Of a stretch of DNA of 64,000 nt, positions 48,414-51,165 are shown in pieces. This DNA comes from an uncultured Lachnospiraceae bacterium (lineage in GTDB: Bacteria > Bacillota > Clostridia > Lachnospirales > Lachnospiraceae), in NCBI GenBank assembly GCA_947632515.1, contig CANRPO010000003.1, positions 1-64,000 on the forward strand. The letters are read 5' to 3'. The notes under the pieces are model-generated. The model did no database searches. It saw only the letters and a list, made by a program, of their open reading frames with translations, and was not told the DNA's origin. The stretch's first letter is position 1. Each line of letters begins with the position of its first letter. The translations under genes and the position numbers were made by a program.

Positions 48414-48656
48414 TTAGATGGACTCGTGGAACGTACGGGAGATAACGTCTGCCTGCTGCTCCGGTGTAAGCTTGATGAAGTTTACAGCGTAGCCGGAAAC
48501 ACGGATCGTCAACTGAGGATAGTTCTCAGGATGTTTCTGAGCGTCCAGAAGAGTATCTCTGTTGAGTACGTTGACGTTGAGGTGATGACCGCCCTTGGTT
48601 GCGTAGCCATCCAATAAAGAAACTAAGTTATCTACCTGTGCATTTGATGCTGCCAT
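48414..48656 (-). CDS. Free-standing glycyl-radical domain protein (PFL subunit, GrcA-like)
   Basis: 80 residues from an ATG with AGGAGG nine bases ahead. The whole protein corresponds to the C-terminal domain of pyruvate formate-lyase: [20 protein letters not shown], then [18 protein letters not shown] with the radical glycine at G55, and [12 protein letters not shown] at the end. E. coli GrcA (YfiD) is a stand-alone version that repairs cleaved PFL. Here the large subunit lacks this domain, so this protein should be an obligatory subunit and not a spare part. It sits behind pflB on the same strand, with a 67-residue gene in between. Confidence 0.9.
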
Positions 48657-48699
48657 AGTGAAAATCCTCCTTTTATAATATATTTTTTGCTACATTGAG

Positions 48700-48835
48700 C
48701 CGTTACACTCGCAAGCCCGCTGCTGCGCAGCTTTCGCTTGCTCGTTTACGGGCTGTCGCCCTATGGATTTATGTCAGATCATTCAGCCGAAAGCAAGCTT
48801 TCTGCTGTCTGCTCTTCCATAAATCCGCACGGCTC
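48700..48835. repeat. Hairpin-rich intergenic element
   Basis: Between the two small genes of the PFL locus. GGATTTATG and CATAAATCC (about 48764 and 48821) form the outer arms of a long imperfect hairpin, with CAGC-CGAAAGC-AA-GCTTTC-TGCTG inside. A second CCCG..CGGG hairpin precedes it. Codon-like structure is absent. It resembles REP-type elements; its transcription as part of the pflB-grcA message could lead to processing between the two genes. Confidence 0.5.
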
Positions 48836-48839
48836 GATG

Positions 48840-49043
48840 CTATTTAAAGTCGTCCAGACCCTCATGGAGAGTCGGCACGCTGCAGGCCAAGGGGGTTCGG
48901 GAACAATCCGTGCACCCCATGGTCTGTACATTCTTAGCGTTGTCGGAATTGTCATCGACGTCTACATTCACATGCCCGACGCCCTGCGCCATGCCGGAAT
49001 CCATCATCTTGACAAAATCCTCGATCATCTGGTTGTTATCCAT
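48840..49043 (-). CDS. 67-residue cysteine-containing protein related to the glycyl-radical domain N-terminus
   Basis: ATG at 49043, preceded by GGAGGG at a suitable distance. Residues 7-29 (IEDFVKMMDSGMAQGVGHV and following) line up with residues 8-30 of the neighbouring glycyl-radical protein ([19 protein letters not shown] and following): seven identities and many conservative changes. The second half is different: CTDC (C44, C47), a further C54 and PTLHEGLDD. There is no glycine-radical motif. It may bind a metal or regulate assembly; no known function. It is probably co-transcribed with pflB, from which it is 82 bases away. Confidence 0.65.
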   Translation of the reverse strand: MDNNQMIEDFVKMMDSGMAQGVGHVNVDVDDNSDNAKNVQTMGCTDCSRTPLACSVPTLHEGLDDFK

Positions 49044-49104
49044 ATCTTCTCAATCCCTCCTTCAATTATGACGTCTGGGAAAAATCTGTCATATATGGAT
49101 TTTT

Positions 49105-49122
49105 GACTTTCCGGGGAAAGTC
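49105..49122 (-). other. Hairpin directly behind the large PFL gene
   Basis: GACTTTCC-GG-GGAAAGTC, a perfect 8-bp stem located between the pflB stop and the next start. On the minus strand it is followed by AAAAATCC, not by a T-run, so it is not a classical terminator. It may protect the 3' end or cause processing of the message. Confidence 0.5.
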
Positions 49123-49125
49123 CTC

Positions 49126-51165
49126 TTATTTGTTCAGATCCAGCTCAATGTCGCCGGCGAATACCTTATCCTCTTTGCCGAGAGCGCCCGGAATGATGGT
49201 GAAGGTATTGGAGATACCATCCTGCGCATCGTTGAACGGGAGCTTGGATACGGAAGACAGGGATGCGACTGCACCGTGGGTGTCACGGCCGTGCATCGGG
49301 TTAGCGCCGGGTGCGAACGGCTGGCCTTTCTTACGTCCGTCAGGCGTGTTGCCGGTAGCCTTACCGTAAGTTACGTTGGAAGTGATGGTAAGGATGGACG
49401 TTGTAGGAATACCGTTTCTGTATGTGTGATGTCTTCTGACTGCCGTCATGAACTTGTGTACGATCATCTGAGCGATCTCGTCTACGCGGTCGTCGTCGTT
49501 GCCGTATTTCGGGAAGTCCCCGGTGGTCTTGAAGTCAACGATCACGCCGTCCTCATCTCTGATCGGCTCAACCTTAGCGTACTTGATAGCGGACAGGGAG
49601 TCTGCCACGATGGAAAGACCCGCGACACCCGTTGCGAAGTAACGCTTAACGTCTCTGTCATGAAGAGCCATCTCTGCTCTCTCATAGCAGTATTTGTCAT
49701 GCATATAGTGGATGATGTTCAGCGTGTTTACATACACATCCGCCTGCCACTCCATCATGTCGATGAATTTATCCATAACGTCGTCATAGTCGAGAACGTC
49801 GCCCACAACAGGACGGTACTTAGGACCAACCTGTTTCTTGGAAACTTCGTCCACACCGCCGTTCAACGCGTACAGCAGGCACTTAGCGAGGTTCGCGCGC
49901 GCGCCGAAGAACTGCATCTCCTTGCCGACTACCATGGAGGATACGCAGCATGCGATCGCGTAGTCATCGCCGTGTACAACTCTCATCAGGTCATCATTCT
50001 CATACTGGATGGAAGAGGTCGTGATGGACATCTTCGCGCAGTATTTCTTCCAGTTCTCGGGAAGTCTCGTGGACCAGAGAACCGTCAGGTTCGGCTCGGG
50101 AGAAGGTCCAAGGTTCTCCAGCGTGTGCAGATAACGGAAACTCATCTTCGTTACCATGTGACGGCCGTCTACGCCGACACCGCCGAGGGACTCTGTTACC
50201 CATACCGGATCGCCCGCGAAAATCTGGTTGTACTCAGGGGTACGGGCGAATTTTACGCATCTCAGTTTCATGATAAAGTGATCTACGAACTCCTGAATCT
50301 GCTCCTCGGTGAATGTGCCGTTGGCAAGATCTCTCTCGGCGTAGATGTCAAGGAAGGTAGAGGTACGTCCAAGGGACATCGCGGCGCCGTTCTGCTCTTT
50401 GACGGAGCAGAGATAACCGAAGTAAGTAGCCTGAATCGCCTCCTGCACGTTGGAGGCCGGTTTGGAGATGTCGCAACCGTAGGATGCAGCCATCTCTTTC
50501 ATCAGTTTCAGAGCGGTCATCTGCTCGGAGAGCTCCTCGCGGAGACGGATCACATCGTCTGTCATGACACGTCCCGTGGAATCCTTCTGCTCCTGTTTGT
50601 CCTCAATCAGTCTGTCGATACCGTACAGAGCCACACGTCTGTAATCGCCGATGATACGTCCGCGTCCGTAAGCATCCGGAAGACCCGTGATGATATGAGC
50701 GGAACGGCAGGCTCTCATCTCCTGGTTGTATGCGTCGAAACAGCCCGCGTTATGCGTCTTTCTGTGCGTGGAGAAGAACTCGCTGATCTCGGGGTCAACC
50801 TCGTAGCCGTTGTCGGAGCAGGCCTTCTCTGCCATTCTGATACCGCCGTAAGGCTGTAAGGAACGCTTGAAAGGCTTATCTGTCTGGAAACCTACGATTT
50901 TCTCTTTGCTCTTGTCCAGATAGCCGGGGCCGTGGGATGTGATGGTGGATACGACTTTGGTGTCCATATCAAGCACGCCGCCTGCCTCACGCTCCTGTTT
51001 CTGCAGATCGAGAACCTGCGCCCACAGATCCTTTGTGTCCTGCGTAGGTCCTGCAAGGAAGGACTCGTCGCCATCGTAAGGATGGTAGTTTCTCTGGATG
51101 AAGTCACGGACGTTGACTTCTTTGTCCCACTTGCCGCCTACAAAATCTTTCCATTCTGGTCTCAT
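49126..51165 (-). CDS. pflB: Pyruvate formate-lyase large subunit lacking the glycyl-radical domain
   Basis: 679 residues against about 750-760 in full enzymes. All parts up to the last domain are present: WKDFVGGKW at the start, [32 protein letters not shown], a [11 protein letters not shown]rp segment and the catalytic pair C406-C407 in [14 protein letters not shown]. It ends after [22 protein letters not shown], exactly where the E. coli enzyme goes on into its glycyl-radical domain (RVSGYAV). The missing domain is encoded 470 bases downstream as an 80-residue protein. It converts pyruvate and CoA to acetyl-CoA and formate. Strong promoter and palindromic leader. Confidence 0.95.

Follow-up and report, generated by a model that had tools for sequence, protein, structure and literature searches.

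A locus that probably encodes a two-chain pyruvate formate-lyase (PFL), in which the radical subunit GrcA3 would be exchangeable and a cysteine-bearing (Cys) element would act at the docking site of this subunit, has been found in the window, the whole stretch of 64,000 nucleotides of DNA that was analysed here. The sequences compared are best explained by a functional two-chain PFL, with the catalytic core and the glycyl radical domain encoded by separate genes and a third gene located between them. The initial annotation of this DNA had already recognized the two PFL chains. However, it missed that much of the family shares the arrangement, which is also present in further families of the same order, and that NCBI already lists the small chain under a family name, GrcA3.

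Organization of the split PFL locus

The three genes occupy positions 48414 to 51165 of the window on the minus strand, in the order PFL core, Cys protein and GrcA3, and each of them is preceded by a GGAGG-type ribosome-binding site (Table 1). The separate ribosome-binding sites described in the initial annotation were thus recovered, as well as its spacing of about 470 bases, since exactly 470 bases separate the stop of the large chain from the start of the small one. A consensus scan found no terminator-like site on the minus strand between the core, Cys and GrcA3 genes, and it gave three weaker promoter-like matches on this strand inside the three-gene unit, some or all of which may be spurious. 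A gene upstream of the PFL core and divergent from it codes for a DUF1858 protein with a GMHCLGC motif (51696-51887, plus strand), adjoining a MecA-family adaptor gene (51979-52818, minus strand); among the 52 full-length relative loci, the MHC[LIV]GC motif was present in 43 and a MecA-like motif in 36.

Table 1. Features of the split PFL locus, with positions given in the numbering of the window.
Feature	Positions	Strand	Evidence or remark
PFL core chain, 679 aa	49126..51165	-	ORF; TIGR01255 match; without radical domain
Catalytic Cys pair C406-C407 of the core	49945..49950	-	Invariant in 36-row alignment
Split-core C-terminal tail, 16 residues	49129..49176	-	Tail comparison
Cys protein, 67 aa, middle gene	48840..49043	-	CxxCx6C, then SVPTLHEGLDD
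Invariant Cys54 of the Cys protein	48882..48884	-	11/11 rows, alignment A1
Invariant Cys47 of the Cys protein	48903..48905	-	Alignment A1, 11 rows
GrcA3 radical subunit, 80 aa	48414..48656	-	NF038360 match
Radical glycine G55 in RVSGYAV of GrcA3	48492..48494	-	8/8 rows, alignment A2
Promoter-like TTGACT-18-TATAAT ahead of the core gene	51251..51280	-	11/12 consensus matches; consensus match only
Terminator-like hairpin downstream of GrcA3	48329..48353	-	Consensus match only
PflA, PFL-activating enzyme	41685..42395	-	About 6 kb beyond GrcA3; TIGR02493, Radical_SAM

The core chain passes the cut-off of the pyruvate formate-lyase equivalog TIGR01255 (1100.6 bits versus 994.2) and keeps the adjacent catalytic Cys pair, which had been assigned to the large chain from the beginning and proved invariant in the rows aligned. 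Its match covers profile positions 2-665 of 744, and the glycyl radical domain is absent from it, the remainder of the profile (positions 664-744) being matched by the separate 80-aa ORF. The previous observations that the large chain stops at residue 679, before the radical domain, and that this domain is encoded on its own with the glycine G55 have therefore been upheld. The alignment of both chains to a full PFL, suggested in the initial annotation, was carried out with solved structures of the E. coli enzyme: residues 10-681 were aligned by the core and residues 682-758 by the small chain, and because the chains meet at residue 681/682, together they cover one PFL with neither gap nor overlap. 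The core ends in a type of tail that is present in the sampled split cores and absent from the sampled fused PFLs.

The small chain scored 162 bits against the NCBIfam family NF038360, 'autonomous glycyl radical cofactor GrcA3' (cut-off 158), and 100.6 bits against the GrcA/YfiD equivalog TIGR04365, below the cut-off of 170. Residues 20-80 of GrcA3 align to residues 67-127 of E. coli GrcA (PDB 6OWR) with an E value of 1.6e-25, in a region that comprises the radical loop and the C-terminal helix; the long N-terminal region is missing in GrcA3, in which the alignment begins at residue 20, versus 67 in 6OWR.

The activating enzyme PflA reached 291.7 bits against TIGR02493 (cut-off 231.75) and was the sole protein of its genome over this cut-off. 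No other PFL was found by profile search in the same genome, which is 83.7% complete; this was the outcome of the search for a second full-length pflB that had been proposed earlier, and as the genome is only complete to that extent, a second PFL could be missing from it. One other match to a glycyl radical domain was obtained in this genome, which is presumably the C-terminus of a ribonucleotide reductase of the class III type. A second copy of GrcA3 was not present among the matches listed for this genome, at the same completeness.

Conservation and distribution of the split

Split genes are often artefacts, and on this ground an assembly error, a frameshift or a decaying gene could be blamed for the arrangement. 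However, of the 483 relatives retrieved with the middle gene as the query, the best 80 were compared (most of their record titles name Lachnospiraceae), and 77 of these had the order core-Cys gene-GrcA3; in the 79 relatives with a core upstream the frame relation between the core and the Cys gene was 0, 1 and 2 in 23, 27 and 29 loci, respectively. Since all frame relations are seen, neither a frameshift nor read-through can explain the split, which agrees with the initial judgement that a frameshift or a sequencing error was unlikely. The ribosome-binding sites of the individual genes, the grouping of the sampled split cores in one clade and the dN/dS of 0.06 of the middle gene also stand against an artefact, an explanation that is refuted by the conservation of the split and hardly deserves any credence. 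The split is real and old, and its conservation across relatives, another of the checks suggested at the outset, extends over many genera.

Of the 299 family genomes scanned, which come almost entirely from different genera, at least 114 contain free GrcA3 chains; this count is a lower bound, based on 150 GrcA3-type matches among those listed, 135 of which are free chains. When 299 genomes of the phylum were scanned at E <= 1e-40, matches appeared in six, in four cases inside fused frames of PFL length, and free GrcA3 was found in two, namely the genome that contains the window and another one of the same family.

In six of the 114 genomes with free GrcA3 (G235, G269, G282, G415, G434 and G446), the matches listed include a full-length PFL as well. 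This coexistence, the name and HMM of NF038360 and the way in which E. coli YfiD works, according to excerpts of the published study (PMC8683613), would fit GrcA3 being a spare part for a full-length PFL, with the truncated core as a degenerate gene. We consider this improbable, because both proteins occur together in only those six genomes among the matches listed, the core is above the PFL equivalog cut-off and has invariant catalytic residues, and no full-length PFL was found in the genome of the window, within its stated completeness.

Characterization of the middle gene

The intervening gene mentioned in the initial annotation does exist, but its nature had been passed over: it encodes a conserved Cys-bearing protein that is a paralogue of GrcA3. 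Residues G23, H24, N26, C47, A53, C54, P57, L59 and G62 are invariant in this family (alignment A1, 11 rows). Homology was judged between two separately built profiles because a single iterative HMM pulled GrcA3 into the Cys profile, and the hhalign comparison of the Cys family (A1, 11 rows) with GrcA3 (A2, 8 rows) gave a probability of 96.4 and an E value of 1.4e-9 over 44 columns. Weak GrcA3 matches were also obtained in NCBIfam from all 11 members of the Cys family (best E 1.3e-6). The Cys protein itself scored 12.9 bits against NF038360, under the cut-off of 158, so it is not a member of the GrcA3 family; no Pfam family was over its cut-off for the Cys family, and no PDB match was better than E 0.67. 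These profile comparisons identify the Cys protein as a paralogue of the docking half of GrcA3 in which a Cys-bearing tail replaces the radical loop.

Of the 38 distinct proteins picked up by a motif search, 35 have a spacing of 27-30 from the strand Asn to the invariant Cys, and in GrcA3 the distance from Asn27 to the radical Gly55 is 28. Near the invariant Cys there is one further Cys in 12 of these 38 distinct Cys proteins and two in the other 26. The Cys proteins of the loci L155 and L168 have an insertion of 18 residues between the strand and the Cys motif (TEELQGNSPDAGSEGIYV in L155). Accessory subunits of the HiPIP-like type have four Cys for a [4Fe-4S] cluster. An iron-sulphur subunit of this kind (HiPIP-like, BssB/BssC type) was considered for the Cys protein and rejected, as there are too few invariant Cys, namely two in the 11 rows.

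Read-through chains of the locus L210 were modelled with AlphaFold2, giving a mean pLDDT of 36.3 for core plus Cys protein (A3) and 36.0 for core, Cys protein and GrcA3 (A4); each of these alignments has 36 rows, all from the window or related loci, and AlphaFold2 models were not used as evidence.

In the family, the Cys protein was detected in 77 of 299 genomes at E <= 8.4e-12, a threshold set by the authors that leaves out the GrcA3 cross-matches, two of the 77 having an internal stop codon. The gene is located directly upstream of a free GrcA3 gene in 73 of the 77 copies, with a median gap of 52 bases, and free GrcA3 is present in 76 of the 77 genomes, the exception being G082, which is 67% complete. 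This association is strong in a Fisher test (76/114 genomes with free GrcA3 versus 1/185 without; p 7.6e-41, uncorrected for kinship). Matches to the Cys protein came from four families within the order, including that of the window.

Cys elements in cis and in trans

A comparison of core tails has been carried out with 49 of 52 split loci read, three of them without a core being left out. Where no Cys gene is linked, the C-terminal tail of the core has at least two Cys in 36 of 40 split loci, and core-tail Cys were found in 0 of 9 loci with a linked gene. These 36 tails comprise 21 of the form CxnCx[IVSA]P[NTI], which resemble the ending of the Cys protein, nine of the CACCEP type and six others. 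The tree set described below, which overlaps with the 49-locus set, gave the same picture, with any tail Cys in 0/57 loci beside a Cys gene (a few genomes being included twice) and at least two Cys in 19/21 loci without it. The chance of two Cys in one such tail is about 5% if a Cys content of 1.3% is assumed, and shared ancestry inflates the count.

The four exceptions among the 40 loci are G447 and G280, with an unlinked Cys protein, G088, with a decayed copy, and G438, with none. A Cys element, either as a tail in cis or as a protein in trans, accompanies nearly every split PFL examined, and it is the least explained part of the split PFL; since G438 and G088 show no intact one, it is not strictly required.

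These data also bear on whether the Cys protein is simply a duplicated, degenerate and functionless GrcA3, as the loss of the radical loop and the internal stop codon in the matches of G088 and G102 might indicate. Against this, pN was lower than pS in 71 of 71 comparisons, revealing strong purifying selection, with a median dN/dS of about 0.06 over the comparisons that yielded a dS value (26 of the 71 were saturated); the analysis covered 71 of the 80 relatives, the other nine not being comparable without gaps. In addition, the protein is present in several families of the order, is mostly replaced by a core Cys tail where it is absent, and has unlinked copies in G432 as well as in G447 and G280. 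A functionless copy is, in consequence, very improbable.

Phylogenetic analysis of split and fused PFLs

In a tree of 104 PFL cores, built from 108 rows after leaving out one copy of the window and three short rows, all 74 sampled split cores (74/74) were placed in one 81-row clade with an SH-aLRT value of 98. This clade is composed of 53 split cores with a Cys gene, 21 split cores without it and seven nested fused PFLs. A careful tree of 86 of the 108 rows, from which further near-copies had been removed, contained three changes between the fused and split forms, and a single clade of all split cores minus the nested fused PFLs was rejected (p-AU 0.000287), the group for this test having been chosen after the first tree was seen. 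The tree counts the changes between the fused and the split state and by itself cannot tell gain from loss, and the simplest reading is that the nested fused PFLs are re-fusions, so that one split would have been followed by two later re-fusions. If the chains have indeed been re-fused in nature, this would speak for their being parts of a single enzyme.

Among the fused PFLs inside the split clade, L089 (genome G246) carries a Cys-rich linker with three Cys, VTCGCEEVTCAV, between the core and the radical domain. It is the only one of 30 fused PFLs with Cys at this junction, the other 29 having none.

Proposed functioning of the two-chain enzyme

The docking of GrcA3 on the core and the transfer of the radical are inferred from homology with PFL. 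The core would hold the substrate site and the C406-C407 pair, without the radical glycine, and GrcA3 would supply the last strand of the barrel, the radical loop with G55 and the C-terminal helix. PflA would install the radical on G55, GrcA3 would dock, and the radical would then move to the Cys pair of the core. As the core lacks the radical glycine, it is proposed that oxygen finds no glycyl radical to cut there, and a GrcA3 chain cut by oxygen could be replaced by a fresh chain of 80 residues.

That a radical subunit damaged by oxygen is exchanged in this way is a plausible hypothesis, which is favoured by the radical domain working in trans in E. coli (PMC12338860) and by the neighbours of standalone second copies of GrcA3 in other genera. 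Of 18 such copies, 7 adjoin genes for Crp/Fnr-type regulators (L230, L238, L242, L245 and L247) or for rubrerythrin, desulfoferrodoxin or thioredoxin (L246, L247 and L248), the neighbours having been picked by eye and with no background rate. Second copies were analysed at 20 loci from 19 of 21 genomes, G262 and G358 being left out and the copy of L229 being hidden by an overlap filter; 18 of these loci are standalone, and the two of G247 are not, as they lie beside PFL or at a contig end. In L235, L236, L237, L239, L241 and L243, the standalone second GrcA3 adjoins a run of genes that we take to be similar to the spoIIIA sporulation operon. A separate radical chain makes it testable whether anaerobes limit oxygen damage by means of a cheap, replaceable vulnerable part, and the split PFL could serve as a template for oxygen-repairable glycyl radical enzymes.

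With regard to the Cys element, the hypothesis is that it caps or guards the radical-docking site, where it might occupy or protect the empty position as a placeholder, a recognition element or a thiol guard. The roles of placeholder and thiol guard are proposed because the Cys protein resembles the missing segment and because its Asn-Cys spacing is close to that between Asn27 and Gly55 of GrcA3. The Cys element could also operate in another step, away from the docking site, through the recruitment of PflA, the binding of a metal or a chaperone activity on the incomplete barrel of the core. Two or three Cys at a conserved spacing could bind metal, the Cys element in cis lies on a tail of varied length, and a PflA motif was found in 49 of the 52 full-length relative loci. 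However, the form in trans is built on the docking half of GrcA3, with its Cys at about the same spacing as the radical position, and a role in another step is a possibility that we take seriously without favouring it.

For a Cys element acting at the docking site, a more detailed and rather doubtful version is that of a dummy radical domain. The strand of the Cys protein would complete the barrel of the core and place a thiol at the site of the radical glycine, covering the active site and C406-C407 under oxygen, perhaps through a mixed disulphide, and the protein would be released when fresh GrcA3 and PflA arrive; elsewhere, the Cys tail of the core would act in cis. If true, a glycyl radical enzyme would here have a park-and-reload cycle built into it.

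Comparison with known systems

Two elements of this system are already known, the small chain as an NCBI family and PFL chains without a radical domain in the PDB. The recent entries 38LA and 38LB ('Formate acetyltransferase'), found by sequence, are PFL chains that lack the radical domain, given that GrcA3 does not match either of them, and the tail of 38LB, GKSGNVMFGECDMCEM, is of the split type and contains Cys. Neither entry was among the matches listed in a Foldseek search with the first AlphaFold2 model (structures to April 2026), and the only free small chain among the PDB matches of GrcA3 was E. coli GrcA, 6OWR. Among the matches listed in the literature search, which left most subscription journals uncovered, none dealt with GrcA3, with the Cys protein or with a PFL that is split in nature. 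The Cys element, seen in cis or in trans in nearly all split PFLs examined, suggests a stage of the cycle that none of these matches describes.

Another glycyl radical enzyme, benzylsuccinate synthase, likewise has small subunits that bear Cys, of which BSS beta regulates the formation of the thiyl radical, according to excerpts of PMC12590467. The beta and gamma subunits bind a [4Fe-4S] cluster, whereas only two Cys are invariant in the Cys protein, which is homologous to the docking half of the radical domain.

The closest parallels come from E. coli, as described in the excerpts of PMC8683613 and PMC12338860 that were available. GrcA (YfiD) is, like GrcA3, a small trans-acting protein that repeats the C-terminus of PFL with its radical glycine; it permits formate production by PflB G734A in trans (PMC12338860) and repairs cut PFL (PMC8683613). 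However, in E. coli a full-length PFL is retained and GrcA serves for repair, whereas no PFL radical domain other than GrcA3 was found in the genome of the window (83.7% complete). The name of NF038360 suggests a repair cofactor, but GrcA3 looks here, by genome content, like an obligate subunit. GrcA3 also lacks the long N-terminal part, which YfiD needs for the installation of its radical in the same excerpts (PMC8683613), and its counterpart in PFL begins further upstream, at residue 682. The E. coli PFL truncated at residue 695 (tPFL, 1-695), which is without beta10, showed weaker binding of YfiD and no rescue, and residues 696-733 were proposed as a recognition element (PMC8683613, in the excerpts). 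A two-chain enzyme is therefore not automatic, and as the natural core is cut slightly earlier than at 695, the question arises of what fills the gap. Both tPFL with YfiD and the locus presented here combine a PFL cut near the same place with a radical domain in trans, but tPFL is a laboratory construct that was not rescued in the excerpts of PMC8683613, whereas the split PFL is a natural arrangement with an additional Cys element.
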